Assembly (NCBI GenBank): GCA_947177425.1
Contig: CAMWUN010000028.1
Coordinates: 1-44,952, forward strand
DNA from: an uncultured bacterium
GTDB lineage: Bacteria; Bacillota; Clostridia; Lachnospirales; Lachnospiraceae
Length of the DNA: 44,952 bases
Direction: 5' to 3'
A program made the translations under genes and the position numbers. Shown here piece by piece: positions 10,985 to 32,169 of this stretch; positions within the stretch are counted from its first letter, which is position 1, and every line of letters starts with the position of its first letter. The notes below the pieces were generated by a model that saw only the letters and a list, made by a program, of their open reading frames with translations, was not told where the DNA came from and made no database searches.

Positions 10985-12379
10985 ATGAAGAATTTGTTTC
11001 ATGTTTTACCAACAGATTTTTTCAAACCGCTTACAGGCAAATATAAGACAGAATATGCAGATTGTATTTTATTGATATTCAATTCGTTCAAACCGGAAAT
11101 TTCATATGGTGTAAACCGAGAAATTGTGGTTAAGGCTTTGGAAGGATATTTTGAAGCAGATGATAATGAAATGACGTTTGATGAACAGACATATATTCGT
11201 GATGCCAGAGAAAAAGCCAATGCAGTAATTGCTTCGTTAAAAGCTTGTGGGTGGATTGAATACGAGCAGGAAAAGAATCATCAGTTGAATGTGGTGTTGT
11301 ATGAGTACGCGATTCCGATTATTGAAAGTATGAATCGAATTATTTGCGAGGAAGAAGCTGAGTATCAGGGGATTATTTCGCAGATTCATGCAAGTCTTCA
11401 GAACAAAGACTTATACACAAAACCTTACGAACTGATTATAAAGGGTGTAAAAGAAAATACGGAACGATTGATTTCGGAGTTAAAGAAACTTAATGTAAGT
11501 ATTAAACGTCATATGGATAAGCAAACGAATGAAATGAGTGCATCCGAGATTATAGATCATTTTTTTGAGTACCATACCAATATTGGTTCGAAGGCATATT
11601 TACGTATGAAAACGAGCGACAACATTTCATATTTTCGAAGTTCTATTATTGAGAAAATAGATGAAATTTTGGAGAATGCCGGTATTATGGAACGGGCAGT
11701 GGCAGGATATATGGAAATTGAGCAGGAAGAGGATTCAGAAAAGGCATATGATAGTATTGTAATGGACTTACTTGATGTAAAATCAATGTTTTACAGGCTG
11801 GATGAAATTATTGAAGAAATTGATTTGAAACACTCCAGATATATGAAAAATGCTGTAATGCGTGCACGGTTTAAACTGGCAACCGGGAACAATATGGAGG
11901 GTAAACTTTCGCGTGTTTTAGACACATTGGCGGAGGAGTTGAATGAAGACAGTATAACGAGTGATGAGGTTTCGGCAGAATTAGCAGAAATTTGTAGTGT
12001 ATATTTTCAAAGTTACGTTTCGCCGGAATCTTTGCGGACAATTCCGGTGACTAAAAAGAATAGTGTTGTGGATGATATGTCAGGAAATATTACAATGTCG
12101 AAAGAGGAACGACTGTTGTACAAAGAAGCTCTTAGAATGAAAAACAGAACACGCTTTTCCAGAAAAAATATAAATGAGTATGTGGTTTCCCTGCTGGCAG
12201 GGAAAGAGAAAATGTCTGTGGAAGAAATCCCTATTGAGACTAAGAGGGATTTGATACGAATAATTTATATCAGTATTTATTCGGGAAATCGTGCAAACAA
12301 CTATGAGATAAAACGTACTAATAAAAGAGTAAAACGTTTAGGCTATGAATTCCCGTTATTTGAAATAGTAAAAAGATAG
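10985..12379 (+). CDS. jetA: Wadjet anti-plasmid system subunit JetA (kleisin-like)
   Basis: The 464-residue protein resembles the JetA family of Firmicutes Wadjet loci (MKNLFHVLPTDFFKPLTGKY near the start, with long helical and winged-helix-like segments). JetA is the MukF/kleisin-like subunit that bridges the JetC ATPase heads. Identification rests on the start of the protein and on the complete JetABCD order that follows. A GGAG site lies 11 bases before the ATG. Base use is clearly more A+T-rich than the flanking housekeeping genes, consistent with horizontal arrival. The exact Wadjet subtype cannot be fixed without a profile search. Confidence 0.88.
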   Translation: MKNLFHVLPTDFFKPLTGKYKTEYADCILLIFNSFKPEISYGVNREIVVKALEGYFEADDNEMTFDEQTYIRDAREKANAVIASLKACGWIEYEQEKNHQLNVVLYEYAIPIIESMNRIICEEEAEYQGIISQIHASLQNKDLYTKPYELIIKGVKENTERLISELKKLNVSIKRHMDKQTNEMSASEIIDHFFEYHTNIGSKAYLRMKTSDNISYFRSSIIEKIDEILENAGIMERAVAGYMEIEQEEDSEKAYDSIVMDLLDVKSMFYRLDEIIEEIDLKHSRYMKNAVMRARFKLATGNNMEGKLSRVLDTLAEELNEDSITSDEVSAELAEICSVYFQSYVSPESLRTIPVTKKNSVVDDMSGNITMSKEERLLYKEALRMKNRTRFSRKNINEYVVSLLAGKEKMSVEEIPIETKRDLIRIIYISIYSGNRANNYEIKRTNKRVKRLGYEFPLFEIVKR

Positions 12380-12387
12380 GAGCAATC

Positions 12388-13011
12388 ATGTTTGAGATAC
12401 TAAATGAATCCGTAGCGCAAAAAGAAAAGTTTCGCATTGCAGCCAATAAGCTTTTAAATCACTGTTTTCTTCTGAAGAAGAAGGAAGATACGAAAAAGGA
12501 CTATGCGTATGTAAGACAAAATTTTGAGATGTTTGTTACATACTTTGATTTACTGGGGTATGATGTGAAGGTGAATGAGGATCAGGGAGTAATCGGATTA
12601 GTGAGCCAATTTGGAACAGGGCGGCTTGAACTGACTAAGTACGAAAGTATCTTGTTGTTGATTCTAAGACTTCTTTATATTGAAAGACGAAAAGAACTTG
12701 CAACCTTCTCGGAAGAAGTAACTGTCATTATGGAAGAGGTAAGAGAAAAATATGCTATGTTAAAAATACGGGCGAAACCATATCTGGACAAAGGTATGGA
12801 ACGTGGTTTTGTGAAACTGTTCCGTAAGTATAATTTGATACAAAACTTAGATACAGATGTAAATCAGGCAGATGCCAGAATCATTATCTATCCTTCCATC
12901 ATTATGGCTGTAACAGTGGAAAATGTAAATGATTATTACGAAATGACAGAACAAAAATTGAAGGATTATGCGGTTAATAAAGATGTGACGGTAGAAAGTG
13001 AAGAAGAGTAG
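12388..13011 (+). CDS. jetB: Wadjet subunit JetB (DUF4194, MukE-like)
   Basis: The 207-residue protein fits the DUF4194/JetB family: compact, helical, with winged-helix features (ELTKYESILLLILRLLYIER, then KELATFSEEVTVIMEEV). In Wadjet and MukBEF-like complexes this subunit binds the kleisin. It begins eight bases after jetA with an AGGAG site. Its TAG stop shares its last base with the GTG start of jetC, so translation is probably coupled. Confidence 0.85.
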   Translation: MFEILNESVAQKEKFRIAANKLLNHCFLLKKKEDTKKDYAYVRQNFEMFVTYFDLLGYDVKVNEDQGVIGLVSQFGTGRLELTKYESILLLILRLLYIERRKELATFSEEVTVIMEEVREKYAMLKIRAKPYLDKGMERGFVKLFRKYNLIQNLDTDVNQADARIIIYPSIIMAVTVENVNDYYEMTEQKLKDYAVNKDVTVESEEE

Positions 13012-16000
13012 TGATATGGCTTGGGTACCTCATTCAAAATATGCCGGCTGCAGAAAGTGATGGTATAAAGATGGACAATCAAAAAAAGATGTTAACCAGA
13101 ATACAATTAATAAACTGGCATTATTTCGAAAATGAAAGGGTGTCGGTAAATGGTTCCACGTTAATCAGTGGAGAAAATACAGCAGGAAAATCTACAGTTT
13201 TAGATGCGATACAGCTCGTGCTTACGACGAATACGCGTCGATTTAATGTGGCAGCTAATGAAAAGGGCAATCGTAGTTTAAAGGGATATGTGCGTTGTAA
13301 AATGGGAAATGTAGGGGAAACCTATCTGCGTAATAATGTAGTGCCGGCAAATGTAGCGTTAGAATTCTATGAAGAGAAGGGAAACAGATACTTTGTAATA
13401 GGCGTTCACATGACATCTCAGGATGAGGAGAGCGCGGTGATTACGAAGTGGTACACGGAAGAATGTAGATTGGAGGACTTATCTTTTACGGTAAATAACC
13501 GTCCGGCTTTGGCAGATGAATTTCGTATAAATGGCAGGCGTATTCGTTATATTGAGCAGAAAAATGCAGCCAGAGACAGATTTAAGAGAAGACTTGGCAA
13601 CTTAGAAGATAAGTTTTTTGATATTATACCCAAATCCTTGGCATTTAAACCCATGGATAATGTGAAAGAATTTATCAATAAATTTGTATTATCCGAGACA
13701 AAGATAGATGTTGCATCTCTGCGTGAAAATATCGAAACATTAAATGAACTGGAATATTTATTGGAACGTTCGCAAAAACAATATAGTGCATTAGAAAACA
13801 TACTAAAGGCCTATGAGAGGATAGAAAAGAAGGAACATGATATTCAGATAAACGATATTCTTTTGATGCTGGCAAATAGGGATGCGTTGTATCAGGAACT
13901 AGAAGATATAAAAAAAGATATTCGTTTAAAAAGACAATATGTTGAGTCGAATAGTCAGGAATTAGATTTGGTGGTACAAAAACTGGCGGCTTTGGAGGAA
14001 CAGATTATAGCAATAAATGTGGCTATACAATCCAATTCTTCCAATAAAATGATAGAGGACGCCAAAAGAAGAATTCAACAATTACAGGGAGATATTTCTG
14101 AGCAGAATGAGCAGGAAAAAGAGCTAAATGAACAGATAAAAAAGTTAAAACAGTATTCACAATGTGTATCAATAATTCAATATATTATGCTTACCAATTC
14201 CGAGATGTCATTGTTGGCATCGGAAGAAGATATAAAACAAAAAAGTAAGGTTGTTGAGAAGATTGAGGAGTTTCAAGGGAATCAACTGGAACAGATTCGT
14301 AAGGCACACATGGGGCTCCAATATAATATGGAGCAACTAAGTGGCACGATAAATGAACTGCAAGGGCGATTAAAGGAACTGGAAAAGAGAAAGCTTAATT
14401 TTCCGGAACAGACAGTTGTGTTGAAAGATGCTATAGAAAAGGAGTTTGCGAGACGGAATATTCATTCAAAGGTCTATATCCTTGCGGAACTTCTGGAAAT
14501 AACAGATGACAAATGGGTAAATGCGGTTGAAGGGTATTTTAATAAGCAGAAGTTTTATTTGATTGTGGAACCTCAATACTATGACGTTGCATTGGAGGTG
14601 TATGAGCGAAATTGCAGGCAGATACACACTGCCGGTATTATCAATACAAAGAAGATTCCGATGGCAGATGAAGTGAATAATCGTTCACTGGCCTATGTGG
14701 TAAAGAGTGAAAATAGATATGCTAAAGCGTATGCAAACTATCTGTTGGGCAGAGTGGCGCGTTGTGAGAATGTCAATGAGTTGGAAAATCATGACATAGC
14801 GATTACACCCCAGTGCATGTTGTATCAGGGCTATGTAGTAAGACATATCAATCCTGCATACTATAAAGAACCTTATATTGGTCAAAATGCATATAGAACC
14901 CAGATTGTAAATGTAAGAGAACTTCTGAAAGAAAAAAGCGTTGAACGTAGTACATTGCGCGAAGAAATCCGGTTATATTGCGATGCTTTGGAGAGAGAGA
15001 AGGCATTTGATTTTACAATTCTAAAGCTTTACCTAAATGCGCCTGCCAAAAAAGCAGAGTTGTTGCGACAGCTTACTCATGAAAATGAGGAATTGAAAAA
15101 GGCGTCTGATGATCCGTCTCTTATTCAGTTGCAAATTGATTTGGAAGATAAGAAAAAAGAGAAAGAAGCGGTTACAGAAAATGAAGCGCAATTAAATAAG
15201 GAGAATGCAAGGCTATTGAATCAAATTGACACCTTAGAGCAGACTCAGCAGAGCAAGGAAATGGCGCTGGCTGAAAGTATGAAAGATTTAGAGGGAAAAC
15301 TTGATTCGGACGGCATCGTGTATCATGAGGCACAGGAAAAGTATAACCTCAACAGAAAAAGCAAAACAGCCAGAAAAGTTGCTGAGAATTTCGCGCCCCA
15401 GAGATCGCAATTTGAGAATGAAAAGACAAGTCTGGTAGATAAAATGAAAGAATTGCAGTATCGTTACAACACAGATTTTACACAGGATTTTGTAGTAGGA
15501 TTAAGCGGGATGACAGAATATAGAGAAGCTGCCATCAAGCTGCGGTCTGTGGAAATGATACGTTATGAGGAAAAACTCCGTCAGGCAAAGGATGATTGTG
15601 AACAAATATTTAAGAGTGATTTTTTATCAAAGATGAAGGAATTGATTGAAAATGCAAAAATCGAATTTCGAAATTTGAATAAGGCATTAGACAGTATTTA
15701 TTATGGTGATGACAGTTATCATTTCAAAATTGGATTCGACAAGAAAAAAGAAGGTCTGTATCGAATGATCACTTCTGAAAATAATCAGGAGGGGATTAAT
15801 CTTTGGACTGCTGCATTTGAAGAACAGTACAAAGAGGAAATGGAAGAGTTATTTAATAAGCTGATGACAAAAGATGATAACGGTCAGAAGATTGTAGAAG
15901 AGTATACGGATTACCGTTCCTATTTGGATTATGATATTGAAATTCGAAAAAAAGATGGTAGTGTACAACGGTTTTCGGATATTTATGGCGAAAAGAGCGG

Positions 16001-16280
16001 CAGTGAAACACAGGTTCCGTATTATGTAGCTATTGCGGCATCTTTTTATCAAATCTATCGGTATGGGAACAGTGTAAGAATTATGTTGCTGGATGAAGCT
16101 TTCGATAAAATGGATGATGAGAGAATTGGCTCCATGATGGATTTCTTTAATGGATTGGATTTACAGGTGATTATGGCAACACCGCCAGCAAAGATTGAGA
16201 TTATTGGTGAAAAAGTAGACACTGTACTGACTGCAATTCGAGTTGGACAAAGTAGTATTGTGGAGGAGTATGATTTTTGA
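13011..16280 (+). CDS. jetC: Wadjet SMC-like ATPase JetC
   Basis: The 1089-residue protein has SMC/MukB architecture. Walker A GENTAGKST lies near residues 54-62 in the N-terminal head. Two long coiled-coil arms (about 250-460 and 680-850) flank a hinge-like middle. The C-terminal head has the signature YGEKSGSETQ near 990 and Walker B IMLLDEAFDKMDD near 1023. JetC extrudes DNA loops so that small circular plasmids are recognised. The GTG at 13011 overlaps the jetB stop; ATG 13041 or 13071 are alternatives, and 13071 is closest to the first conserved strand (MLTRIQLINWHYFEN). Confidence 0.93.
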   Translation: MIWLGYLIQNMPAAESDGIKMDNQKKMLTRIQLINWHYFENERVSVNGSTLISGENTAGKSTVLDAIQLVLTTNTRRFNVAANEKGNRSLKGYVRCKMGNVGETYLRNNVVPANVALEFYEEKGNRYFVIGVHMTSQDEESAVITKWYTEECRLEDLSFTVNNRPALADEFRINGRRIRYIEQKNAARDRFKRRLGNLEDKFFDIIPKSLAFKPMDNVKEFINKFVLSETKIDVASLRENIETLNELEYLLERSQKQYSALENILKAYERIEKKEHDIQINDILLMLANRDALYQELEDIKKDIRLKRQYVESNSQELDLVVQKLAALEEQIIAINVAIQSNSSNKMIEDAKRRIQQLQGDISEQNEQEKELNEQIKKLKQYSQCVSIIQYIMLTNSEMSLLASEEDIKQKSKVVEKIEEFQGNQLEQIRKAHMGLQYNMEQLSGTINELQGRLKELEKRKLNFPEQTVVLKDAIEKEFARRNIHSKVYILAELLEITDDKWVNAVEGYFNKQKFYLIVEPQYYDVALEVYERNCRQIHTAGIINTKKIPMADEVNNRSLAYVVKSENRYAKAYANYLLGRVARCENVNELENHDIAITPQCMLYQGYVVRHINPAYYKEPYIGQNAYRTQIVNVRELLKEKSVERSTLREEIRLYCDALEREKAFDFTILKLYLNAPAKKAELLRQLTHENEELKKASDDPSLIQLQIDLEDKKKEKEAVTENEAQLNKENARLLNQIDTLEQTQQSKEMALAESMKDLEGKLDSDGIVYHEAQEKYNLNRKSKTARKVAENFAPQRSQFENEKTSLVDKMKELQYRYNTDFTQDFVVGLSGMTEYREAAIKLRSVEMIRYEEKLRQAKDDCEQIFKSDFLSKMKELIENAKIEFRNLNKALDSIYYGDDSYHFKIGFDKKKEGLYRMITSENNQEGINLWTAAFEEQYKEEMEELFNKLMTKDDNGQKIVEEYTDYRSYLDYDIEIRKKDGSVQRFSDIYGEKSGSETQVPYYVAIAASFYQIYRYGNSVRIMLLDEAFDKMDDERIGSMMDFFNGLDLQVIMATPPAKIEIIGEKVDTVLTAIRVGQSSIVEEYDF

Positions 16281-17494
16281 GGCCGAATGATATACAAAGA
16301 AAGACTATTCATAGTTTACTGGATAAATATGAAAAGAGTAAGACATTCCTTGGGAAAAATCAGGTGAATCAGAAATTTTCAAGGCGTATTGATGAATTGT
16401 TTCCAAAATACAATGATGATGCTGAATATGATTTTTTTTGTGATGTTAATGAAGCTTTGGAAGAATTAAAAAAAACAGAACTTATTATCATACAGTATCA
16501 AAGAGCGGGTATCATAAAATCAGTGGAATTGAATTTGCCGCAATTGAAACGATGTTATGAGTTTGTAAACAGAGAATCTAGAAAAGAGGAGCGTGAATGG
16601 ATTCTTGAAATAATGGGGCAATTTCAGGAATGTGCGGTTTTGGATGCTTATTTTGACGTACAAAGAGTAAAAATATCCAAGAATCAAAAGGTAGAGTATT
16701 TTGATGGAAAGAAACAGGAATTTCTGGATTTATTAACCCTTGTAAAACTTATCTGTACAAACGAGGAAGAACAGTTTATCAGGGACTTTTCGGTAAGATA
16801 TTTTTCAGATTCAAAAAGAGTAGAGACTTTGGCAGGTAAAGCACAGGCGTTGATGTATCAATATGGCGAGTATCAGGACAGAGAGTCTGTTTTGGAAGAA
16901 TGTGGCATTGTTAAAACGCCGACTTATGTATGCTTGAAGGGAAATGGAAGAATGACATTAGGCGGTCAGATGATTGACCTTTCAAAACTGAATGGGGATG
17001 TGGCTTTGTCCACGGCTTCTATAAAAGAATTGGATAAAATTGAAATTCTTGGAGACTGCGTTGTAACAGTCGAAAATCTTACAAGTTTTCATGATTATAA
17101 CGGTGCAGAAGATTTTGTGATTTATCTTGGCGGTTTTCATAATACAACAAAGCGGAAATTTTTGATATACTTATATGAGCAGAACAGGGAGAAAAAATAC
17201 TTGCATTTTGGCGATATTGATGCGGGTGGATTTTATATTTATGAGCATTTAAAATCTAAAACCGGTATCCCGTTCAGAACACTTCGCATGAATGTTGAAA
17301 CTTTGAAAAAGCATCGTTCTCAAACAAAAACATTAACACAAACTGATAAAAAGCGTATTGAAAGTTTATTGAAGAAATTGGATGAGAAGCATAAGGAAAG
17401 CATGGCAGATGATGATTACAGAAGTGTGCTTCAGTATATGTTGGAGAACAATTGTAAATTGGAACAAGAAGCACTGTATGGTGAATATTTGTGA
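16277..17494 (+). CDS. jetD: Wadjet nuclease subunit JetD (topoisomerase VI-like Toprim)
   Basis: The 405-residue protein has an N-terminal helical part (about 1-180, DUF3322-like) and a C-terminal Toprim domain (DUF2220). The metal-binding glutamate is in TVENLTSFHDY (about residue 265), and the DxD pair is in HFGDIDAGGFYIYEH (about 310). JetD cleaves the plasmid DNA trapped by JetABC. The start is TTG, inside the jetC stop (TTGA), with an excellent GGAGGAG site eight bases before it within jetC. The operon ends at a terminator at 17524-17571. Confidence 0.92.
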   Translation: MRPNDIQRKTIHSLLDKYEKSKTFLGKNQVNQKFSRRIDELFPKYNDDAEYDFFCDVNEALEELKKTELIIIQYQRAGIIKSVELNLPQLKRCYEFVNRESRKEEREWILEIMGQFQECAVLDAYFDVQRVKISKNQKVEYFDGKKQEFLDLLTLVKLICTNEEEQFIRDFSVRYFSDSKRVETLAGKAQALMYQYGEYQDRESVLEECGIVKTPTYVCLKGNGRMTLGGQMIDLSKLNGDVALSTASIKELDKIEILGDCVVTVENLTSFHDYNGAEDFVIYLGGFHNTTKRKFLIYLYEQNREKKYLHFGDIDAGGFYIYEHLKSKTGIPFRTLRMNVETLKKHRSQTKTLTQTDKKRIESLLKKLDEKHKESMADDDYRSVLQYMLENNCKLEQEALYGEYL

Positions 17495-22040: not shown

Positions 22041-24257
22041 TTGAAAAACAGAAAGAGACAAAGCAAGTTTACAATTAAAATGCAGAAGAAACTGATTGTA
22101 ATGTTCCTGATGATATTGCTGGTTTTCATGGGACTTACTTACCGGCTGTTTGCCATAACAAGGGATAATGGCGAGCAGTACAAAAAGCAGGTTCTTTCCC
22201 AGCAGAGATATGACAGTAAGACCCTTCCGTACAGGAGAGGGTCTATACTGGATGCCAACGGAAGTATTCTGGCCACCAGCGAGAAGGTCTACAATGTGAT
22301 TCTGGATGCAGTTGCCATTTCGGAAAAGGAAGAGTACCTGGAGCCGACTTTGGAGGCATTAAGGAGCCAGCTTGGAATTGATACGGGAGAGGTACGCTCC
22401 TACATAGCGGCGAACAAGGAAGTATCCCGCTATAAGGTTCTTGCAAAACGGCTGGAATACGAGCAGATAGAAGGTTTTCTGTCCATGCAGAATGAAGAGG
22501 ATTCTCTGATTAAGGGGATATGGTTTGAGGAGGAGTATAAGAGGACTTATCCGGGAAATACCCTTGCCTGTGATGTGATAGGGTTTACCACCAGCGACAA
22601 TGTAGGTTCTTACGGGCTGGAAGAGTATTATAATGATGTGCTCTCCGGAACCCCCGGCAGAGAGTACGGATATCTCAACAATGATTCAAATCTGGAGAGA
22701 ACTACCATCCCTGCCCAGGACGGCAACAGCATTGTTACCACCATTGATATCAATATCCAGAACATTGTTGAGAAATACCTGAAAAAGTTTGATGAGGAAT
22801 ATAAGGATAATGCCCACGAAGGGAATGGCGCACGTAATACAGGCTGTATTATTATGGATGTGAACAGTGGGGAAATCCTTGCAATGGCAAGTTATCCGGT
22901 ATTTAACTTAAACGACCCAAGGAATACAGATATGCTGCTGGGAATGCCTTTTATTGACGAGGAGGGAAAAGTTACCGGAGAATATATTAACGAGGAAAAT
23001 GTCAGCAGACTGAACGATGATTCCGACATGTTTTACAGGCACCTTAACGCCCTGTGGAGAAATTATTGTATCAATGACACCTATGAGCCGGGGTCTGTTT
23101 CCAAACCTTTTACGGTGGCGGCAGGCATTGAGAGCGGAAGCATCACGGGAAACGAGAAGTACAATTGTGAGGGAAAACTTCATGTAGGAACTCACGACAT
23201 CAAATGTCATAATATATATGGAGACGGCTATCTGTCTGTGGCAGAAGGGGTGGAACGCTCCTGTAATGTGAATATGATGTATGTGGCAATGGCTACAGGG
23301 ATTCCTACTTTTATTAAATTCCAGCATATTTTTAATCTGGGATTAAAGACTAACATAGACCTGGCAGGCGAAGCCAGGACGGCGTCCCTGGTTTATAATG
23401 AAAATTCAATGGGGCCTACAGATCTTGCCACCAACAGTTTCGGACAGGGATATAACGCTACCATGATTCAGATGATTACGGCATTCTGTTCCCTGATTAA
23501 CGGAGGATATTATTATGAGCCTCATATGGTCAGCAAAATTGTAAGTCCTTCAGGGGCCACTGTGCAGAACATAGAGCCAAGGGTGCTGAAGCAGACGATT
23601 TCCGAAACCACTTCCGCCAAAGTGAGGGAAATGTGCAATCTGGTAGTGGCAGGCGCAAATGGTACAGGTCATACGGCAAGGCCGGCCGGCTATATGATTG
23701 GCGGCAAGACGGGAACGGCGGAGACACTGCCGAGAGGTAACAGGGAATACGTAGTATCCTTTATGGGGTATGCGCCTGCGGACAATCCCCAGATTGCCAT
23801 CTATGTGGTGGTGGACAGGCCCAATGTGCCGGGATCTGTCATGGACGATGCCAAGTTTGCCACAAGGATTGTGAGAAGCATTTTAACGGAAGTCCTTCCC
23901 TACAAAGGGATTTTTATGACAGAAGAACTTTCCGACAAAGAGCGGGAAGAACTGGAAGCTTTACAGATTGAAATTATGACGCCCCCTGTAACAGAAGAGG
24001 GACAGGAAGCGGAAGAAGGAGAAGACGGGGAGAATCCTGAAGGAACCACAGAAGGCGCTGGGGAAGAGGGGACAGAAGAAGAGCCCAAGGAGCCGGTATG
24101 GAAGTCCTTCCCCAGAGATCCTGAAACCGGTTACGCAGTGGATCCGTCCACGGGTGCATTTGTAGATCCCGATACGGGAGCGACTCTGGGCGGAAGCTTC
24201 GAGGGAGGCATGAGCACGGAGCCGAGCCCGACGCCTTCGCCGGAAGCGCAGCAGTAA
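22041..24257 (+). CDS. ftsI: class B penicillin-binding protein, probable septal transpeptidase (FtsI/PbpB type)
   Basis: The 738-residue protein has a membrane helix at about 14-36, a PBP dimerisation domain (about 55-210) and a transpeptidase domain (about 255-620). The active-site motif is EPGSVSKPF (serine near 351), with SCN near 408 and GGKTGTAETLPRG near 555. A long low-complexity tail (about 645-738) is rich in Glu, Gly and Pro and contains DPETGYAV, DPSTGAFV and DPDTGATL repeats. It has no PASTA domain. TTG 22041 is the likely start. Its place before the second PBP matches B. subtilis pbpB then spoVD. It is the only uninterrupted class B PBP here. Confidence 0.9.
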   Translation: MKNRKRQSKFTIKMQKKLIVMFLMILLVFMGLTYRLFAITRDNGEQYKKQVLSQQRYDSKTLPYRRGSILDANGSILATSEKVYNVILDAVAISEKEEYLEPTLEALRSQLGIDTGEVRSYIAANKEVSRYKVLAKRLEYEQIEGFLSMQNEEDSLIKGIWFEEEYKRTYPGNTLACDVIGFTTSDNVGSYGLEEYYNDVLSGTPGREYGYLNNDSNLERTTIPAQDGNSIVTTIDINIQNIVEKYLKKFDEEYKDNAHEGNGARNTGCIIMDVNSGEILAMASYPVFNLNDPRNTDMLLGMPFIDEEGKVTGEYINEENVSRLNDDSDMFYRHLNALWRNYCINDTYEPGSVSKPFTVAAGIESGSITGNEKYNCEGKLHVGTHDIKCHNIYGDGYLSVAEGVERSCNVNMMYVAMATGIPTFIKFQHIFNLGLKTNIDLAGEARTASLVYNENSMGPTDLATNSFGQGYNATMIQMITAFCSLINGGYYYEPHMVSKIVSPSGATVQNIEPRVLKQTISETTSAKVREMCNLVVAGANGTGHTARPAGYMIGGKTGTAETLPRGNREYVVSFMGYAPADNPQIAIYVVVDRPNVPGSVMDDAKFATRIVRSILTEVLPYKGIFMTEELSDKEREELEALQIEIMTPPVTEEGQEAEEGEDGENPEGTTEGAGEEGTEEEPKEPVWKSFPRDPETGYAVDPSTGAFVDPDTGATLGGSFEGGMSTEPSPTPSPEAQQ

Positions 24258-24274
24258 ATGGATTTTAAGTGAAT

Positions 24275-24328
24275 AACCTCATGGAAAGGGTAATAAATTA
24301 TAATAATACCTTTTCTATGAGGTTTTTT
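24275..24328 (+). terminator. hairpin terminator that contains the spoVD ribosome-binding site
   Basis: An 18-bp stem (24275-24292 with 24307-24324, two G-T pairs) around a 14-base AT loop is followed by T up to 24328. The right arm contains TGAGGT, the only plausible Shine-Dalgarno for ATG 24329. It therefore looks like both a terminator after the first PBP gene and a structure that would hide the ribosome-binding site of the second. Confidence 0.8.
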
Positions 24329-25435
24329 ATGATTAAAAATAAAACCAGCAACAGAAAAAAAGTCGTCACCGTATTTTTCGCGTGTCTTGTGCTGTTTTTG
24401 ATTTTAATAGGAAGACTGGTATATCTGATGGTGGTCCAGTCCGACCATTATTCGCAAAAAGCGCAGGAACTCCATGAGAGAGAACGGAGTATTAAGGCGG
24501 CCCGGGGGAGGATACTGGATGCAAACGGGACGGTGATTGCAGACAACAAAACGGTCTGTACCATTTCTGTGATACATAACCAGATTAAGGAACCTGATAA
24601 AATTGTGGAGGTCTTAAGCAAAGAACTGGATCTTTCCGAGGATTATGTGAGAAAAAGGGTGGAAAAGTATTCTGCTATCGAGAGAATCAAAAGCAATGTG
24701 GATAAGGAAAAAGGGGATGCTATAAGGGCCTACAATCTGGAAGGTGTAAAGGTGGACGAAGACTACAAGCGGTATTACCCTTACGACAGTCTTGCCTCCA
24801 AGGTGCTGGGATTTACCGGAGGGGATAACCAGGGGATAATAGGGCTTGAAGTAAAATATGAAGAGTACTTAAAGGGACAGGAGGGAACCATTCTTACCAT
24901 CACTGATGCCAGGGGGGTTGAGATTGACGCGGCGGGGGAGCAGAGAATCGATCCTGTACCGGGCAACGACCTTTATATCAGCCTGGATATGAACATCCAG
25001 AGTTATGCCACCCAGCTTGCAAAGCAGGTGATGGAGACAAAGCAGGCGGAGCGTGTGTCCATTCTGGTGATGAATCCGCAGAACGGCGAAATCATGGCCA
25101 TGGCGGATGTGCCGGAATTTGACCTGAATAATCCTTATGATTTGCCGGAAGGCACAGATACGGAAGGGCTTACAGAAGAAAAAAAGCAGGAAATGTTAAA
25201 CCAGATGTGGCGCAACGGCTGTATTAATGATACCTATGAGCCGGGGTCTACCTTTAAGATTATTACAGCCGCAGCGGGACTGGAGGGCGGTGTGGTAACG
25301 ACCCAGGACCAGTTTAGCTGCCCCGGCTATATTATGGTGGAAGACCGTAGGATACGGTGCCATAAAACCACAGGCCATGGGGCGGAAAATTTTATTCAGG
25401 CCACCATGAACAGTTGTAACCCGGTGTTTATGTAA
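24329..25435 (+). pseudogene. spoVD: SpoVD-like class B PBP, N-terminal part (split by the inserted element)
   Basis: From ATG 24329 (or ATG 24317) the frame encodes a membrane helix (VVTVFFACLVLFLILIGRLV), a PBP dimerisation domain with RGRILDANGTVIADN, and the first half of the transpeptidase domain with EPGSTFKI. It is cut at NSCNPVF, in the second active-site motif, where the element contributes ATG then stop. A longer frame from 24269 would run through the terminator and is not credible. The rest of the gene is at 30550-31194. Rejoining at the 17-bp repeat restores the frame and gives about 577-581 aa. Position after ftsI suggests SpoVD, the sporulation-specific transpeptidase for spore cortex. 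Confidence 0.88.
25415..25431 (+). repeat. left attachment site repeat (attL core)
   Basis: TGTAACCCGGTGTTTAT, identical to 30550-30566. A further GAACA match lies two mismatched bases upstream of both copies. It encodes C-N-P-V-F of the SxN motif of the interrupted PBP. Confidence 0.85.
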
Positions 25436-25495
25436 ATCATGTAAGACACTGTCATGCCAGCTTGGCGTGTGTTTGGAAAAAGCGTTTATAAAGAG

Positions 25496-25538
25496 CATAA
25501 AAAGACGGCATAACCCTTGAAAAAAGGACTGTGCCGCC
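25496..25538 (-). terminator. terminator of the ABC importer operon
   Basis: On the reverse strand GGCGGCACAGTCCTT pairs with AAGGGTTATGCCGTC and is followed by TTTTT. It lies 20 bases beyond the stop codon of the ATPase gene and prevents reading into the split PBP gene. Confidence 0.8.
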
Positions 25539-25558
25539 TGCTTGATTCTGTGCGTATG

Positions 25559-26353
25559 CTATCCTAAAATTGCCTTATCATCGGCAAACGCTTCCCCGCT
25601 TGCCTCCTCAAACTTGCGCATCAGGTCGGATACGGTAAGCTTTTTCTTTTCTTCCCCTTTGATATCCAGAATGATTTTTCCATCCATCAGCATAATGAGA
25701 CGGTTCCCGTGTGTGATGGCATCTTTCATATTGTGGGTAATCATCAGGGTCGTTAAATGATCTTTATTGACAATATATTCTGTAGTTTCCAGAACCTTTG
25801 CCGCAGTCTTGGGATCCAGGGCGGCAGTATGTTCATCTAAAAGGAGCAGCTTCGGCTTCTGCAGGGACGCCATCAGCAGGGTTAACGCCTGCCTCTGCCC
25901 GCCGGAGAGAAGGCCCACCTTTGTGGTCAGACGGTTTTCCAGTCCTAATCCCAGTATCTTTAACAGTTCTTTATATTCTTCCCGTTCCTTCTTGTTGATG
26001 CCTGTACGCAGGGTACGGCGGTGTCCCCGGCGCTTTGCAAGGGCAAGGTTTTCTTCAATACCCATGGTGGCGGCCGTGCCGGTCATGGGATCCTGAAATA
26101 CCCGGCCAAGGAATCTGGCTCTTTTGTGTTCTGGAAGCCTGGTGACATCTACCTTATCAATGAGAATCTGCCCCTGATCCACGGGCCATACACCGGCGAT
26201 AGCATTCATCATAGTTGATTTGCCTGCACCGTTGCCGCCGATGACAGTGACGAAATCCCCGTCCTCTAAAGTCAGGGAAAAATTGTCCAGAGCAAGCTTT
26301 TCATTAATGGTGCCGGGATTAAACACTTTCGTAACATTTTTGATTTCAAGCAT
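25559..26353 (-). CDS. ABC importer ATP-binding protein (TrpXYZ-like)
   Basis: The 264-residue ATPase has Walker A GGNGAGKSTMMN near residue 40, a Q-loop (RVFQDP), signature LSGGQRQALT near 147, Walker B LLLLDEHTAALDP near 167 and a switch histidine in MITHN. The sequence groups with the ATPases of importers that use PF04392-type binding proteins, including tryptophan importers. It overlaps the permease gene by eight bases and has a strong AAGGAGG site. It is the last gene of a reverse-strand operon carried by the element. Confidence 0.9.
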   Translation of the reverse strand: MLEIKNVTKVFNPGTINEKLALDNFSLTLEDGDFVTVIGGNGAGKSTMMNAIAGVWPVDQGQILIDKVDVTRLPEHKRARFLGRVFQDPMTGTAATMGIEENLALAKRRGHRRTLRTGINKKEREEYKELLKILGLGLENRLTTKVGLLSGGQRQALTLLMASLQKPKLLLLDEHTAALDPKTAAKVLETTEYIVNKDHLTTLMITHNMKDAITHGNRLIMLMDGKIILDIKGEEKKKLTVSDLMRKFEEASGEAFADDKAILG

Positions 26354-27275
26354 TGGTACGTCCTCCTTTCTTTAAAGCAGGTTTGCTTAAATATTTGCCT
26401 TTCCAGTATGGAATGGCAAGGAATATGGCTACGATAAGAGCGGAGAACAGTTTTAAGTTGTCCGGTTTCGCGCCCATCCACATAACTGTCTGAAGTACCA
26501 TGTAGTAAAGAATGGAGCCCAGGGCAACGCCTATGAGTTTGAAGCCGAAATTGCGGAAAATCCGTCCGAACAACGCTTCCCCTATAATAACTGCCGCAAG
26601 ACCGATGACGATAGCGCCCCGTCCCATATTAATGTCGGAAAAACCCTGGTATTGTGCCAGCAGCGCTCCGGACAAACCTACAAGCCCGTTGGAAATCATA
26701 AGGGCAAGAACTTTGGCAAAATCCGTGTTAATGCCCTGTGCCCTTGACATATTGCCGTTACAGCCTGTAGCCCGCAGGGAGCAGCCCAGTTCTGTCCCGA
26801 AAAACCAGTAAAGGGCGATCACCAGAAGGAGCGTAGCGATGGCTACAATGAAAATCGTATTTTTATAAAAAGCAACATTTTTAATATATCTTAAAGAAAC
26901 CAAAAGGTTGTATTTGTCAACGTTAATTGCCTGGTTTGCCTTTCCCATAATCTCAAGATTAACAGAGTAAAGGCCAAGCTGTGTCAGAATACCGGACAAA
27001 ATAGGGGGGATGCCCATAAAGGTGTGGAAAAGCCCGGTCGCCAGTCCTGTCAGCATACCTGCTAAAGTAGCTACAAACATGGAAATGAAAACATTGTGGC
27101 CGGAAAGCATCATCATGATGCAGACAGCGCCTCCGGTACATAAGGAACCGTCAACGGTAAGGTCAGCAAAGTCGAGAATCCGGTATGTAATATAAATGCC
27201 GATGGCAGTAATGCCCCAGATAAGACCCTGGGCGATGGTTCCCGGCATTGCGTTCAGTAAATGTGCGATGTTCAT
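26346..27275 (-). CDS. ABC importer permease (TrpXYZ-like)
   Basis: The start is set at ATG 27275 (MNIAHLLNAMPGTIAQGLIW), directly after GGAGG; a longer frame to 27401 runs into a repeat region. The 309-residue protein has eight to ten hydrophobic helices and the branched-chain-type permease sequence LTVDGSLCTGGAV near the start. It matches the single permease of importers paired with PF04392 binding proteins. Substrates reported for this group include tryptophan and other small aromatic or nucleoside-like compounds; the one used here is unknown. Confidence 0.88.
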   Translation of the reverse strand: MNIAHLLNAMPGTIAQGLIWGITAIGIYITYRILDFADLTVDGSLCTGGAVCIMMMLSGHNVFISMFVATLAGMLTGLATGLFHTFMGIPPILSGILTQLGLYSVNLEIMGKANQAINVDKYNLLVSLRYIKNVAFYKNTIFIVAIATLLLVIALYWFFGTELGCSLRATGCNGNMSRAQGINTDFAKVLALMISNGLVGLSGALLAQYQGFSDINMGRGAIVIGLAAVIIGEALFGRIFRNFGFKLIGVALGSILYYMVLQTVMWMGAKPDNLKLFSALIVAIFLAIPYWKGKYLSKPALKKGGRTNA

Positions 27276-27302
27276 TGATATCCTCCAGACAAAATATAGT
27301 AT

Positions 27303-27333
27303 CAAAGGCTGGCCGCGGAGCGTGGCAGCATAT
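27303..27333. repeat. dispersed hairpin repeat, degenerate copy
   Basis: GGCTGGCCGCGGAGCGTGGC then AGCATATTG, with complementary arms around GAG. It is related to copies at 4491, 6747 and 17575. It lies between the permease and binding-protein genes inside the element. Confidence 0.45.
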
Positions 27334-27335
27334 TG

Positions 27336-27372
27336 ATGAAAAAGCAGCGAGAGAAGAAATTCTCCCGCTGTT
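27336..27372 (-). terminator. intra-operon terminator/attenuator after the binding-protein gene
   Basis: On the reverse strand CAGCGGGAGAA pairs with TTCTCTCGCTG (one mismatch) and is followed by CTTTTTC. Its place between the binding-protein gene and the permease suggests that read-through is limited so that binding protein is made in excess. Confidence 0.7.
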
Positions 27373-27387
27373 CTTTGTATTTTCTTA

Positions 27388-27424
27388 CAATAAGCAGGCA
27401 CACAAAGTGTGGCGGCGTTTGTTA
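27388..27424. repeat. dispersed hairpin repeat, copy inside the element
   Basis: CAATAAGCAGG, then CACACAAAGTGTG (a perfect stem with AAA loop), then GCGGCGTTTGTT. It shares the CAATAAG start and GTTTGTT end with copies at 4491 and 6747. Confidence 0.6.
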
Positions 27425-27427
27425 AGA

Positions 27428-28483
27428 TTATTCGCCGATTGCGACGTAATCTTCAGGAACTGTGATATTTAATGCCTCACAGTTTTGGGCATTATATTTC
27501 TTTACAAACTGGGGTGCATATTCAACAGGCATGGTGGAGATATCTGCGCCTTCTGCAAGGATTCTGGCAGCCATTTTTCCGGTTGCCACGCCGATATCAT
27601 AATAGCTGATGGACAAAGTTGCCACGCCGCATCCTGCACAGATACCTTCTTCCCCGGCAATAACAGGTATCTGGGCGGGGAGACAGATATTGTTAATCAG
27701 TTCAGCGTTGGAAGCTGCTGTGTTGTCGGTAGGGACATAGATTACGTCAACAGCGCTTACTGCGCTTGTCACAACAGAAGACAGATCGTTGGAATCTGAA
27801 AACGCATAGTATTCGCAGCTATAGCCTTTTTCTTCCAGAAAAGTTTTGATTGCGTCTACCTGATACTGGGAATTTGCTTCTGCGGAACAGTACAGCAGGC
27901 CGATATTCTTGGCGTCGGGGAACAATTCCTGAAGCATATCTGCCTGTCCGTCAAGGGGAGCAAGGTCTGATGTGCCGGAAATATTTCCTCCTACAGTACC
28001 GCTAAAATCGGGAATTTCAAGAGCAACCCCGTATTCTGTTACGGAAGTTCCGAGAATGGGGATTTCATTGGTTCCGGCAGCGGCCGCCTGTAATGCGGGG
28101 GTTGCATTTGCAAGAATCAAATCTACATCAGAAGATACGAAGCCGTTGATGATAGTGGAACAGGTATTGGCGTCGCCCTGTGCGTTCTGCTCGTCAAAGG
28201 TTACGCTGCTGCCTAACGCTTCCGTCAGGGCATCTTTAAAGCCCTGTGTTGCTGCGTCAAGGGCTTCATGCTGCACTAACTGGCAGATACCTATGGTGTA
28301 AGAAGCATCGGAACCGCTTTCCGTTTCAGCGGGCGCTTCGGCTTCGCTTTCAGCAGGGGTTTCGTCTTCTGTTTCAGCAGGAGCGGATTCCTGGCTTCCG
28401 GCAGTGTCCTTGGCGGAACCGCCGCAGGCTGCAAGAGTACCTGCCATAGCTACAGTTAAAAGTAATACAAGTGCTTTTTTCAT
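27428..28483 (-). CDS. ABC importer substrate-binding lipoprotein (PF04392 family)
   Basis: The 351-residue protein has a lipoprotein signal peptide (MKKALVLLLTVAMAGTLAAC, with cysteine at 20). A Ser/Glu/Ala-rich linker (about 25-60) leads to a two-lobed periplasmic-binding fold with ICQLVQHEALDAATQGFKDA and NTAASNAELINNICLPAQIP. This is the PF04392 type that includes TrpX/YtrX-like proteins. It is the first gene of the reverse operon, with an AGGAGG site and the consensus promoter at 28534-28562. The lipobox would be processed by Lgt (18958). Confidence 0.92.
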   Translation of the reverse strand: MKKALVLLLTVAMAGTLAACGGSAKDTAGSQESAPAETEDETPAESEAEAPAETESGSDASYTIGICQLVQHEALDAATQGFKDALTEALGSSVTFDEQNAQGDANTCSTIINGFVSSDVDLILANATPALQAAAAGTNEIPILGTSVTEYGVALEIPDFSGTVGGNISGTSDLAPLDGQADMLQELFPDAKNIGLLYCSAEANSQYQVDAIKTFLEEKGYSCEYYAFSDSNDLSSVVTSAVSAVDVIYVPTDNTAASNAELINNICLPAQIPVIAGEEGICAGCGVATLSISYYDIGVATGKMAARILAEGADISTMPVEYAPQFVKKYNAQNCEALNITVPEDYVAIGE

Positions 28484-28533
28484 AATGGTTTCCTCCCATA
28501 AAATATTACGGTGAATAAATCACTGCGTATCAG

Positions 28534-28562
28534 ATTATACAGCTTTAAAGCGCTAAAGTCAA
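28534..28562 (-). promoter_or_regulatory. sigma-A promoter of the ABC importer operon, with spacer palindrome
   Basis: On the reverse strand TTGACT (28562-28557) is 17 bases from TATAAT (28539-28534). A 10-bp palindrome GCTTTAAAGC (28542-28551) occupies the spacer and could be an operator. Confidence 0.75.
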
Positions 28563-28674
28563 TGATATTTTTCATTAAATCATAGAAATCAGTTTTCAGA
28601 CTGTGCAGCCCGTCCGGCAGATTCTGAAAATTGATTTTTAAGTCCTGGAATTTGCAGAATAAAAGAGGAATATA

Positions 28675-28872
28675 TTGGAGTTAAGAAAAAAAGGGATGGC
28701 AGATATGGAAAAAGAAGCAGTAGAAAGGGGACAGGAGGTTCTAAGAAGGCAGGTTCTCATGCACATGCCGGATTTGCTCTGGCAGAAGGGGCTGATTGGC
28801 GAAGGGGAGAAGATACATATGAAAAGGATAATCGGGCAGGAGAGGATGGAGCCGGGAAGATGGAGAGGGTAG
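28675..28872 (+). CDS. small ORF coupled to the serine recombinase, unknown (SHOCT-like end)
   Basis: The 65-residue frame starts at TTG 28675 after GAGG (alternatives are ATG 28696 and ATG 28705) and overlaps the recombinase start by 13 bases, so translation is probably coupled. The protein is charged and helical. Its second half (MPDLLWQKGLIGEGEKIHMK) has the spacing of the short SHOCT helix pair, which often reads L-x-x-x-G-x-I-x-x-E-E-F. I do not recognise a specific family. A position directly before a serine recombinase is common for accessory or directionality proteins, but that role is inferred. Confidence 0.6.
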   Translation: MELRKKGMADMEKEAVERGQEVLRRQVLMHMPDLLWQKGLIGEGEKIHMKRIIGQERMEPGRWRG

Positions 28873-30554
28873 GCATTTACAACAGGTGCAGTACGGAGGA
28901 AGAAAGCCAGAAAAATGCCCTGGCTTCCCAGGTGGCGGAGAGCCGGGAGATTGCCCTTAAGATGGGGTGGGATATTGTGGAGCAGTACGTAGAATCCGAG
29001 ACAGGCACAGTGGCCTACAAAAGGGGGGAGTATCAGAGACTCCTTTCAGATATGGAAAAGGGAAGATTTGACATTGTCATGATCAAATCCATTGACAGAC
29101 TTACCCGCTGTGCAAGGGACTGGTATTTTTTCTTAAGCAGGCTTACAGAAAACGGGCTGAAACTCTACTTATATATAGAAGGAAAATATTATACGCCGGA
29201 TGATAACCTGATTTCAGGAATCAAGGCAATACTGGCGGAAGATTTCAGCCGGGAACTGTCCAAGAAGATTAAAAATGCCCACAGGCGCAGGCAGGAGAAG
29301 AAAAGCGGATGCAATATCACATGTGAGATGTTCGGATGGAATAAGACGGCAAAGGATACTTATGAAATCAATGAGCAGGAGGCGGAATATTACCGGACGG
29401 CTTTTGCCCTTGCAAAAGAGGGAAAGGGATTTTATTCCATAAGCAATATTATGTATGGACTTGGAGCAAGGGGAAAAAGGGGGAATAAGATTTCGGAGGT
29501 CCAGTGGCGGAAAATGCTGTATACCCCAAGAGCACACGGGACTATGATACTGAATCAGAAAAGTTATGATTTTGACAGGAAAAAGTATGTGCAAGTGCCC
29601 AGGGAGCGGTGGATTGTCATGGAAAATGCCCTGCCCCCTATTGTCTCCAGGGAATATCAGGAGGAAGTTATTCAGATTTTGCAGCTAAGGGCGGCCGAAA
29701 GTCCATGTGGAAATTCCCGGAGGAAGGATGCAGAAAGGGAGAAGGAGCCGGAAACGGCGGAGGATGGAAAAAGGAAACTGGCGCCAGGGGACAGGAAGCT
29801 CCTTATGAAAGGAAAATATCCACTCAGCCGGAAACTGGTATGCGCAGAGTGTGGGAAATTTTATTACAGAACCCGGCAGACTTTCAGGCAGGGGGAGCGG
29901 ATCGTGTGGAAGTGTTCTACATTTCTTGCCGAAGGACGGGGAGGAAGGGAAGCAGGAGGAGCCGGGTGCGGCAATATTCATCTGACGGAAGAGGGAATAT
30001 TGCAGGGAATACAGGAAGCCTTTATGGAAAAAACTTCGTTTGGCCGGGAGGAATGTAGAGTTTTGGAGGAGGAAACAGTGAAGGTTCTGAAAAAGGCCCT
30101 CCATCCACAAAATAGCCAGGGAAGTCTGGCAGTCTGTGAAAAGGAGTATAAGAAGCTGGCCGCCAAAAAGGATATGCTTATGGAAAAACTTCTTGCCGCA
30201 GTCATTTCCGATGAGGATTTTAAAAGATATCATGGAGATATTTCGGGACAAATGAAAGCGCTTTCGGATAAAATAAACGGCATAAAGGATGAGGAAAAAC
30301 AATATAATAGTTATGAGATGCGCATACGGAAGATAAAAGAGGAACTGGAAGAAGGAGGCCTGATAAGAAAGGCGCTGGCCATGGAGATTTTAAGGTGGAC
30401 AGACCATATTGAGGTACATGGAGACGGAACCCTTGAGGTTTGGCTGGATGAGGGAAGAGCATGGAACGTGGCAGGAGACGGCCCGGGAAAGGAGGGAAAG
30501 GAGAACGGGGGCTTTTACTGTGTCCGGGCGGCGTATATCCGTGAACACCTGTAA
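28860..30554 (+). CDS. large serine recombinase (site-specific integrase/excisionase)
   Basis: The 564-residue protein has a catalytic resolvase domain (about 1-145) with nucleophile Ser11 in YNRCSTEEESQ and the downstream IDRLTRCARDW segment. A recombinase domain (about 155-280) is followed by a zinc ribbon (cysteines about 328, 331, 352, 370) and a coiled-coil segment (about 400-510), the usual plan of large serine integrases and of SpoIVCA-like recombinases. The TAA stop lies in attR, so the gene is intact both in the chromosome and on the excised circle. Transcription runs toward the 3' half of the split PBP gene and mraY. Confidence 0.95.
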   Translation: MERVGIYNRCSTEEESQKNALASQVAESREIALKMGWDIVEQYVESETGTVAYKRGEYQRLLSDMEKGRFDIVMIKSIDRLTRCARDWYFFLSRLTENGLKLYLYIEGKYYTPDDNLISGIKAILAEDFSRELSKKIKNAHRRRQEKKSGCNITCEMFGWNKTAKDTYEINEQEAEYYRTAFALAKEGKGFYSISNIMYGLGARGKRGNKISEVQWRKMLYTPRAHGTMILNQKSYDFDRKKYVQVPRERWIVMENALPPIVSREYQEEVIQILQLRAAESPCGNSRRKDAEREKEPETAEDGKRKLAPGDRKLLMKGKYPLSRKLVCAECGKFYYRTRQTFRQGERIVWKCSTFLAEGRGGREAGGAGCGNIHLTEEGILQGIQEAFMEKTSFGREECRVLEEETVKVLKKALHPQNSQGSLAVCEKEYKKLAAKKDMLMEKLLAAVISDEDFKRYHGDISGQMKALSDKINGIKDEEKQYNSYEMRIRKIKEELEEGGLIRKALAMEILRWTDHIEVHGDGTLEVWLDEGRAWNVAGDGPGKEGKENGGFYCVRAAYIREHL

Positions 30555-30566
30555 CCCGGTGTTTAT
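30550..30566 (+). repeat. right attachment site repeat (attR core)
   Basis: TGTAACCCGGTGTTTAT, identical to 25415-25431. It contains the TAA stop of the recombinase gene and resumes the C-N-P-V-F codons of the split PBP. Confidence 0.85.
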
Positions 30567-31194
30567 TACGGTGGGGCTGCGGCTGGGAGTGGAAAAATAC
30601 TATTATTATTTTAAAAGTTTCGGGCTTTTAAATAAGACAGGGGTAGACCTTCCCGGAGAGGCGGGGACGATTATGCATAAGATGGAGGATATGAAGGCGG
30701 TGGAACTGGCGACAGTATCCTTTGGCCAGTCCTTCCAGATTACTCCCATACAGCTTGCGGCCACAGCATCCTCCATCATCAACGGAGGCAACCGGATTAC
30801 GCCGCATTTTGCAGTAAAGACGGCAAACAGGGATGGAACACAGATTCAGCGGTTCTCTTATCCGGTGACGGAGCATATTGTATCAGAAGAAACCTCTGCC
30901 ACCATGCGGATGATTCTGGAGCAGGTGGTAGAGAATGGCTCCGGGAAGAACGGTTATGTGGAAGGAGCAAGGGTGGGAGGCAAGACAGCTACAAGCCAGA
31001 CCCTTCCAAGGGGAAGCGGCAGGTATATTGCATCCTTTCTTGGCTTTGCCCCGGCAGATGATCCCCAAGTGCTCGCCCTTGCCATCATTCATAACCCCCA
31101 GGGTGTTTATTATGGGGGACAGGTGGCGGCCCCGGTGGTCAGACAGCTTTTTGAAAATATTCTTCCTTATTTGGAAAAAATGGATTATAATTGA
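30550..31194 (+). pseudogene. spoVD: SpoVD-like class B PBP, C-terminal part (split by the inserted element)
   Basis: The frame resumes at CNPVFITVGLRLGVEKYYYY and encodes the rest of the transpeptidase domain to the stop at 31194. The third motif, normally K-T/S-G, reads KTA here (GGKTATSQTLPRGSGRY). The remainder (YIASFLGFAPADDPQVLALA, then YYGGQVAAPVVRQLF) is typical for SpoVD/FtsI-like enzymes and there is no PASTA domain. No credible start codon or ribosome-binding site precedes it, since upstream sequence is the recombinase gene in another frame. It can only make protein if rejoined to 24329-25431. Confidence 0.88.
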
Positions 31195-31206
31195 GAGGTG
31201 CAGGCA

Positions 31207-32169
31207 ATGAAAGGCAGCTTTATTGTAGTGCCTATATTGATATCTTTTGGGATGAGCGCAGTTTTAGGACCCTTTGTCATTCCTTTTTTAAGGAGACTTA
31301 AGGTGGGGCAGACCGTCAGGGACGACGGGCCCAGTACCCATTTGAAGAAGTCGGGGACGCCTACCATGGGCGGCATCCTGATTATGGTCAGTGTGGCAGT
31401 TACATCTGTACTATATGTGAAAGACTATCCGAAAATCGCGCCGGTTCTTTTCCTTACGCTGGGGTTCGGGCTGATAGGATTTCTGGATGATTATATTAAG
31501 GTGGTGCTGAGACGTTCCATGGGGCTTAAACCCATGCAGAAAATGTTCCTCCAGCTTGTGGTGACAGGGTTATTTGCCTATTATCTGGTTCATGCCACAT
31601 CGGTTTCACTGGCTATGCGTATCCCTTTTATGAAGGGGTATTATGTGGATTTCGGCTGGCTGAATCTGCCGCTTATGTTTGTTGCGGTAACAGGAACCGT
31701 AAACGGCGCCAACTTTACTGACGGACTGGACGGCCTTGCAAGCAGTGTGACAGTCATGATATCTACTTTCTTTACGGTGGCGGCTGTGGGGCTGGAAGCC
31801 GGGATCGCACCCATTACCTGTGCGGTGACAGGGGCGCTGCTGGGGTTCTTGCTGTTCAATGTGCATCCTGCCAGCGTATTCATGGGTGACACAGGTTCCC
31901 TTGCCCTTGGGGGATTCGTTGCGGCCAGCGCTTATATGATGCAGATGCCGCTGTATCTGCCCATTGTGGGATTTATTTATGTGGCCGAGGTTTTGTCGGT
32001 TATGATACAGGTAGTTTATTATAAGGTAAGCGGAGGAAGGCGGATTTTTAAGATGGCGCCTCTCCACCATCATTTTGAACTGTGTGGATGGAAGGAGACA
32101 AAGGTAGTGGCAGTGTTTTCCATTGTCACAGCGGTGCTCTGCCTGCTTGCTTTGTTGGGAATTTCATAG
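31207..32169 (+). CDS. mraY: phospho-N-acetylmuramoyl-pentapeptide transferase
   Basis: The 320-residue membrane protein has ten predicted helices and the MraY motifs: PTMGG near residue 51, FLDDYIK with the paired aspartates, NFTDGLDGLA and MGDTGSLALGG, and APLHHHFE near the end. It forms lipid I from UDP-MurNAc-pentapeptide and undecaprenyl phosphate. ATG 31207 follows GAGAGG and is preferred to GTG 31198. It lies 12 bases after the C-terminal spoVD fragment, so it must be transcribed through or from the right end of the element. Confidence 0.97.
   Translation: MKGSFIVVPILISFGMSAVLGPFVIPFLRRLKVGQTVRDDGPSTHLKKSGTPTMGGILIMVSVAVTSVLYVKDYPKIAPVLFLTLGFGLIGFLDDYIKVVLRRSMGLKPMQKMFLQLVVTGLFAYYLVHATSVSLAMRIPFMKGYYVDFGWLNLPLMFVAVTGTVNGANFTDGLDGLASSVTVMISTFFTVAAVGLEAGIAPITCAVTGALLGFLLFNVHPASVFMGDTGSLALGGFVAASAYMMQMPLYLPIVGFIYVAEVLSVMIQVVYYKVSGGRRIFKMAPLHHHFELCGWKETKVVAVFSIVTAVLCLLALLGIS

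Follow-up and report, generated by a model that had tools for sequence, protein, structure and literature searches.

Organization of the interrupted locus

The window studied here, a whole stretch of 44,952 nucleotides (contig CAMWUN010000028.1 of GenBank assembly GCA_947177425.1, from an uncultured member of the Lachnospiraceae), contains a class B penicillin-binding protein (PBP) gene split into two halves by a 5,135-bp element with its own large serine recombinase gene (Table 1). The original prediction, made from this sequence, had placed the halves at 24329-25431 and 30550-31194, and the open reading frames (ORFs) and Pfam domains bear it out: the left half covers the PBP_dimer domain and positions 2-107 of the 299-position Transpeptidase model, and the right half covers positions 103-299. 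The left ORF opens upstream with a GTG codon, position 24329 being a possible later, maybe native, start. The best-scoring model for each half is TIGR02214 (SpoVD), and the split gene sits between an intact class B PBP gene and mraY.

Table 1. Features of the interrupted PBP locus (positions in the window)
Feature	Position	Strand	Basis or remark
Intact class B PBP, neighbouring paralogue; control gene	22041..24257	+	Pfam, NCBIfam
PBP 5' half, spoVD-type class B, through S-C-N	24269..25435	+	ORF, Pfam, NCBIfam
attL, 28-nt repeat	25404..25431	+	core TGTAA 25415-25419; inferred crossover dinucleotide AA
ABC transporter ATPase (cargo)	25559..26353	-	ORF, Pfam; 86-96% identity in related elements
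ABC transporter permease, BPD_transp_2 (cargo)	26346..27401	-	ORF, Pfam
ABC substrate-binding protein, TrpX-related (cargo)	27428..28483	-	230.6 bits, below NCBIfam cut-off 390
ABC-operon promoter-like site TTGACT-N17-TATAAT, palindrome in spacer	28534..28562	-	sigma-A type, 11/12 matches
AATATATT, -10-like motif	28669..28676	+	
Small ORF of 65 aa with TTG start; candidate recombination directionality factor	28675..28872	+	
Large serine recombinase, uninterrupted	28860..30554	+	Resolvase, Recombinase, Zn_ribbon_recom; N-terminal Y-N-R-C-S-T
attR, 28-nt repeat	30539..30566	+	core TGTAA 30550-30554, doubling as recombinase stop codon
PBP 3' half (remaining transpeptidase domain)	30550..31194	+	ORF, Pfam, NCBIfam
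mraY; wall-gene cluster part from murD onwards also downstream of element	31198..32169	+	

The two halves meet the element at an exact 17-bp repeat, TGTAACCCGGTGTTTAT, present as predicted at 25415-25431 and 30550-30566 with a spacing of 5135 and embedded in a 28-nt repeat of 89% identity. The recombinase gene does end inside the right repeat, as had been noted, its stop codon being the TAA of the right TGTAA. Joining the repeats restores the open frame that the original prediction described, 596 codons from stop to stop, through M-N-S-C-N-P-V-F-I-T-V.

The same holds in the relatives described below. In all 18 elements compared, a crossover at the AA of TGTAA yields S-C-N-P-V-F within a single open frame that runs for 581-634 codons between stops. 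The attP site deduced from the attL and attR arms of these elements is an inverted repeat around this AA, with 9-14 of 15 positions paired in 17 of the 18 (mean over the elements 11.3); at random places the mean pairing is 3.7, and only 0.5% of them reach 9 and 5.7% reach 7. The arms vary among species yet mostly remain complementary. In one element (L086, genome G329) GGT replaces TGT to the left of AA in attR, so that the conserved codon is kept only if the crossover lies to the right of GGT, in line with the inferred position.

Of the contents of the element, the original prediction had recognized the recombinase, all three Pfam models of which score above their cut-offs, but had missed an ATP-binding cassette (ABC) transporter operon and a small ORF. 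The substrate-binding protein of the operon is the single match in the genome of the window (E<=1e-60). The small ORF gave no match in Pfam and NCBIfam searches; all 19 loci compared have such a candidate, 42-98 aa long, ahead of the recombinase gene, and most of these ORFs have in common a stretch L-L-x-x-x-G-L-[IL]. No phage genes were recognized among the main ORFs of the element, no phage-library search having been made, and its GC content resembles that of the surrounding DNA. Viral contigs scanned for the recombinase gave five pattern matches, none of which was confirmed. In the genome of the window (G000) the large serine recombinase domain is matched 14 times.

Recurrence, selection and history

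The comparison with relatives that the original prediction had proposed shows that the break and the gene order recur in other genomes, isolates included, and that relatives with a whole gene exist. In the genus of the window, 35 of 37 genomes have the right half, of which 17 are split at the identical codon and 18 are whole; here G323 was scored as split from an attR at a contig end, and G322 as whole though cut by a contig end. The isolate 1XD21-87, additional to these 17, is split at the same codon, and Parablautia muri is among the genomes with a split gene. The PBP gene has one match (E<=1e-42) in each of the 35 genomes, with no second copy found. A scan of named genomes found this arrangement six times, in 1XD21-87, in Parablautia muri and in four metagenome-assembled genomes, and returned a seventh, unrelated locus in Sphingobium; five of the six probably coincide with genus genomes (G299, G301, G318, G330, G332) and were not recounted. 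Chance or an assembly artefact is ruled out by the identical break and gene order in other genomes including isolates, and a recent single insertion is rejected because the split is common to divergent species.

Outside the genus, the matches listed for the family sample include two genomes of two other genera, G064 and G122, with a split at the same codon and different cargo. The insert of G064 has FAD oxidoreductases, DUF1667, a VanW-like gene and an FGGY-family kinase that looks by eye to be of the glycerol-kinase type; that of G122 has an Hsp70, a weak match to DUF4870 and a protein of the chemotaxis-receptor type. In a third genus (G003, locus L091, 5440-13641) the same PBP gene is split elsewhere, near residue 192, by an insert that encodes three serine recombinases and a member of the sulfate permease family and has one further ORF that matches nothing in Pfam. 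No long repeat was found at this break; aligned at GG, its ends give an inverted-repeat attP with 18 of 25 positions paired (the best of seven shifts) and an open joined frame. The insertion in G003 is independent of that in the genus of the window. A class-wide scan of 291 genomes revealed no other clear split among the matches listed, with short frames in G439 (380 codons) and G485 (486 codons), and reading of the ORFs by eye, with no family search, recognized no spore gene beside ten more distant recombinases (L122-L131).

Purifying selection on both halves is no weaker than in intact genes. In the interrupted genomes the left half has a nonsynonymous-to-synonymous ratio (pN/pS) of 0.109 (16 genomes) and the right half one of 0.082 (17 genomes), as compared with 0.136 and 0.130 for the corresponding parts in 17 intact genomes; all these ratios are rough, with synonymous sites close to saturation. 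Over such a distance, fragments without a use would nevertheless have decayed. Elsewhere in the interrupted set the ratio is 0.156-0.209 for mraW, mraY and murD, 0.089-0.211 for the ABC genes and 0.349 for the recombinase. In-frame stops inside the matched stretches are confined to L072, with one close to the N-terminal edge of the left half and three at the C-terminal end of its recombinase match, to the intact L098, with one, and to L075 and L081, each with one close to the N-terminal edge of the permease match.

In the host-gene tree (with 1XD21-87 included and G323 left out) the 17 interrupted genomes and five intact ones form one clade of 22, with a Shimodaira-Hasegawa-like approximate likelihood ratio (SH-aLRT) support of 99. 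A clade of interrupted genomes excluding the nested intact ones was rejected by the approximately unbiased (AU) test (p 0.0013). The recombinase tree matches the host tree in its starred pairs and in a subclade of five, and differs from it in that L085 is outermost; host and recombinase distances correlate (r 0.64, p 0.0001, 16 genomes).

The five nested intact genomes (G303, G325, G327, G331, G333) have no match to this recombinase at E<=1e-90, only a 40% relative being present on another contig of G331, and no match to the binding protein at E<=1e-60, as would be expected after precise loss of the element. By comparison, the ABC operon sits elsewhere in 9 of the 12 intact genomes that the tree puts outside the clade, and also in G322, which is not in the tree; no adjacent large serine recombinase was recognized by eye at the chromosomal operons of element-free genomes. 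Of the 17 interrupted genomes, 16 have a single match to the binding protein (on another contig in G326), and none was found in G323, whose contig ends within the element. In a simple history, an element at this site would have captured a host operon, descended with the lineage and undergone several precise losses that removed the transporter as well.

Possible excision during sporulation

Several observations link the split gene to sporulation. Among 299 genomes of the family, its orthologue and SpoIVA are both present in 188 and both absent from 99, the gene alone being found in 6 and SpoIVA alone in 6; the association is thus broken in 12 of 299 genomes (Fisher p 1.6e-63, kinship ignored), after exclusion of 16 paralogue-level matches (1e-42 to 1e-54) from the count of orthologues. 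As a control, the neighbouring PBP is present in 280 of the 299 genomes (E<=1e-100). In the genus itself SpoIVA was found in 37 of 37 genomes, one copy being partial. Because its distribution tracks that of SpoIVA, and by its best-scoring model, the split gene is assigned to the sporulation PBPs of the spoVD type. SpoVD is not known to be required for vegetative growth.

Upstream of the recombinase start, within 340 nt and ahead of the small ORF, ATATA[ACT]T occurs in 18 of 19 loci. Ahead of the small ORF, 9 of 19 loci also have a sigma-E-like pattern (ATA, 14-17 nt, [CA]ATAyAnT), compared with 0.2 in shuffled sequences; the pattern is found upstream of spoIVA in 20 of 20 cases, and upstream of the control genes in none (mraW 0/18, murD 0/17, neighbouring PBP 0/18, left half 0/18). 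As a sign of mother-cell expression this promoter pattern is suggestive only. The ABC operon has a promoter-like site of the vegetative type, and the strict pattern of promoter plus operator is seen in 14 of 16 elements and at 4 of 10 chromosomal operon loci of element-free genomes. The operator-like palindrome in the spacer is conserved both in elements and in chromosomal copies (L112, L113, L120, L121). The element also parts mraY, murD and the later wall genes from the upstream cluster, and growing cells must still express them; a sigma-70 scan from the recombinase start to mraY gave on the plus strand only a 9-of-12 match (30245-30274), about the level of shuffled sequences.

The split at one codon, the att sites, the restored frame in 18 of 18 elements, the conservation of both halves, the single gene match per genome, the presence throughout the genus and the tracking of sporulation, all read from genome sequences, favour the developmental excision suggested by the original prediction. 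Very probably, the insert is a domesticated gene-intervening element that is excised during sporulation to rejoin the spoVD-type PBP gene. According to this model, in growing cells the element splits the gene and the full enzyme would not be produced. During sporulation the recombinase would carry out a crossover between attL and attR at the AA in the middle of C-T-G-T-A-A, probably assisted by the product of the small ORF as a directionality factor, which would free a circle of about 5.1 kb and rejoin the gene in frame. Since the gene tracks sporulation and excision of the skin type takes place in the terminal mother cell, excision is most likely there, with the forespore retaining the element for the next generation. 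No other copy of the cargo operon was found in the genome, and loss of the element would therefore cost a cell the transporter.

Frame restoration, selection on the halves and the nested intact genomes would be explained equally well by a reversible population-level switch (phase variation or active lysogeny), which would operate in some growing cells and leave sporulation to select those with a whole gene; the excised form of the yin element of Clostridium botulinum was detected at every time point of the culture (PMC10747680). Such a switch would deprive dividing cells of the only transporter copy found, and in the loci that have it, the sigma-E-like pattern speaks for the mother cell. Neither point is decisive, and we regard the switch as unlikely.

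Far less probable still is a plain insertion into a dispensable gene with no programmed excision, the alternative named in the original prediction. The dispensability of SpoVD in vegetative cells would permit it, but the decay that it predicts is seen in neither half: purifying selection is strong on both, across 16 and 17 divergent genomes, the joined frame is open in 18 of 18 elements, and the attP inverted repeat is clear in 17 of 18. It is equally hard to believe that the conserved halves function as a split enzyme without excision, because the right half of 8 of 18 elements lacks an in-frame start codon ahead of the upstream stop, the left fragment reads S-C-K rather than S-C-N in 8 of 18, where the motif arises only by joining, and its tails past the core vary among elements from 6 to 62 residues.

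A number of observations count against excision during sporulation as the explanation. In the data, which are genome assemblies and not reads, no excised junction or circle was seen. Scored separately against TIGR02214, the PBP halves reach 327.3 and 232.4 bits, below the cut-off of 688. The attP of L081 pairs at only 7 of 15 positions, the level of 5.7% of random places. The small ORF is strongly divergent, its computed pI ranging from 4.9 to 10.0 (18 copies, L073 omitted). The sigma-E-like pattern, which was relaxed after the sequences had been viewed, is absent from 10 of 19 loci, the window and 1XD21-87 among them, and the first -10 position is C in only 2 of its 9 matches. Finally, the minimum on the host tree is four changes (one gain, one loss and two re-gains, the candidates being the nested interrupted L074 and L081), whereas one gain and four losses need five by simple counting. 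Re-gains by transfer, one change cheaper, may have occurred; the lack of the transporter in the nested intact genomes (0 of 5, versus 9 of 12 outside the clade) favours losses.

Comparison with known elements

The best NCBIfam match of the recombinase is XisF (NF041201), with 62.9 bits against a cut-off of 375. XisF acts on the fdxN element of heterocyst-forming cyanobacteria, in a programmed excision that takes place in a terminal cell, as predicted here; the two recombinases are related and belong to different families, and the target of XisF is no sporulation gene.

Interrupted sporulation genes named in the portions consulted of three papers are sigK, spsM, spoVFB, gerE and yabG (PMC5595907, PMC5025042, PMC10747680); spoVD is not one of them. 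Literature searches, judged by titles and the opening parts of abstracts in a library without most subscription papers, turned up no report of a split spoVD or of an element of this kind in Lachnospiraceae.

The closest parallel in content is gin, a 28.6-kb element with 31 genes, three of them for recombinases, in gerE of Bacillus cereus ATCC10987 (PMC5595907). Like the element described here, gin has no phage genes and targets a sporulation gene, which is rebuilt upon excision by its own serine recombinase (GirC) with a helper (GirX). In contrast, the present element is 5.1 kb long, has one recombinase and a transporter operon, interrupts a PBP gene and is found genus-wide. The skin element in sigK of Clostridioides difficile, excised in the mother cell, has a directionality factor of 72 aa, CD1234; its recombinase promoter is of the sigma-A type, and dependence on sigma-E and SpoIIID is confined to the factor (PMC5025042). 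Both elements combine a large serine recombinase with a small ORF, and the location of the small ORF resembles that of CD1234, although its role as a factor is that of a candidate here; skin is prophage-like and lies in sigK, whereas here the target is a PBP gene and phage genes were not recognized. The yin element in yabG of C. botulinum V73, prophage-like and reported from one strain only in that paper (PMC10747680), likewise interrupts a sporulation gene and encodes a recombinase together with a putative directionality factor.

Thus, the likeness to skin that the original prediction had proposed extends to the mechanism and not to the content, as no phage gene was recognized and the ABC operon carried as cargo lies elsewhere on the chromosome in relatives that lack the element. 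The element has neither the prophage-like content nor the sigK location that define skin proper. It resembles skin and gin in its predicted mechanism and has the sequence characters of sporulation gene-intervening elements (skin, gin, vfbin, SP-beta in spsM, yin), namely an interrupted sporulation gene (so classified by gene distribution and not by phenotype), att repeats that restore the frame and a site-specific recombinase of its own. For the directionality factor that several of these elements are reported to have, the small ORF is a candidate. It is distinguished from skin and gin by being small, without recognized phage genes and genus-wide, and by holding the only transporter copy found.

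If confirmed, the excision would imply that such a rearrangement can be genus-wide and built without phage genes, and that host metabolic genes can ride as passengers, making loss of the element costly. A broader possibility, put forward tentatively and in our judgement somewhat less probable than an even chance, is that in this lineage of gut Lachnospiraceae programmed rearrangement is a normal part of sporulation: a host operon for nutrient uptake, with its promoter and operator, would have moved into the excised segment, the mother cell would irreversibly lose the transporter on gaining the cortex PBP, and in other genera the spoVD site would serve as a slot for exchangeable cargo (a glycerol-kinase-type operon, Hsp70). 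With one recombinase, one small protein, a palindromic attP and many orthologues, the element offers a compact natural system for studying how serine recombinases gain directionality and for asking why gene interruptions are tolerated by spore formers. Annotators should not label split spoVD genes of gut genomes as pseudogenes.

Upstream of the wall-gene cluster, the window also contains a Wadjet-type defence operon (JetA, DUF4194, an SMC-like ATPase and JetD; 10985-17494) in a stretch of low GC content, about 0.36.

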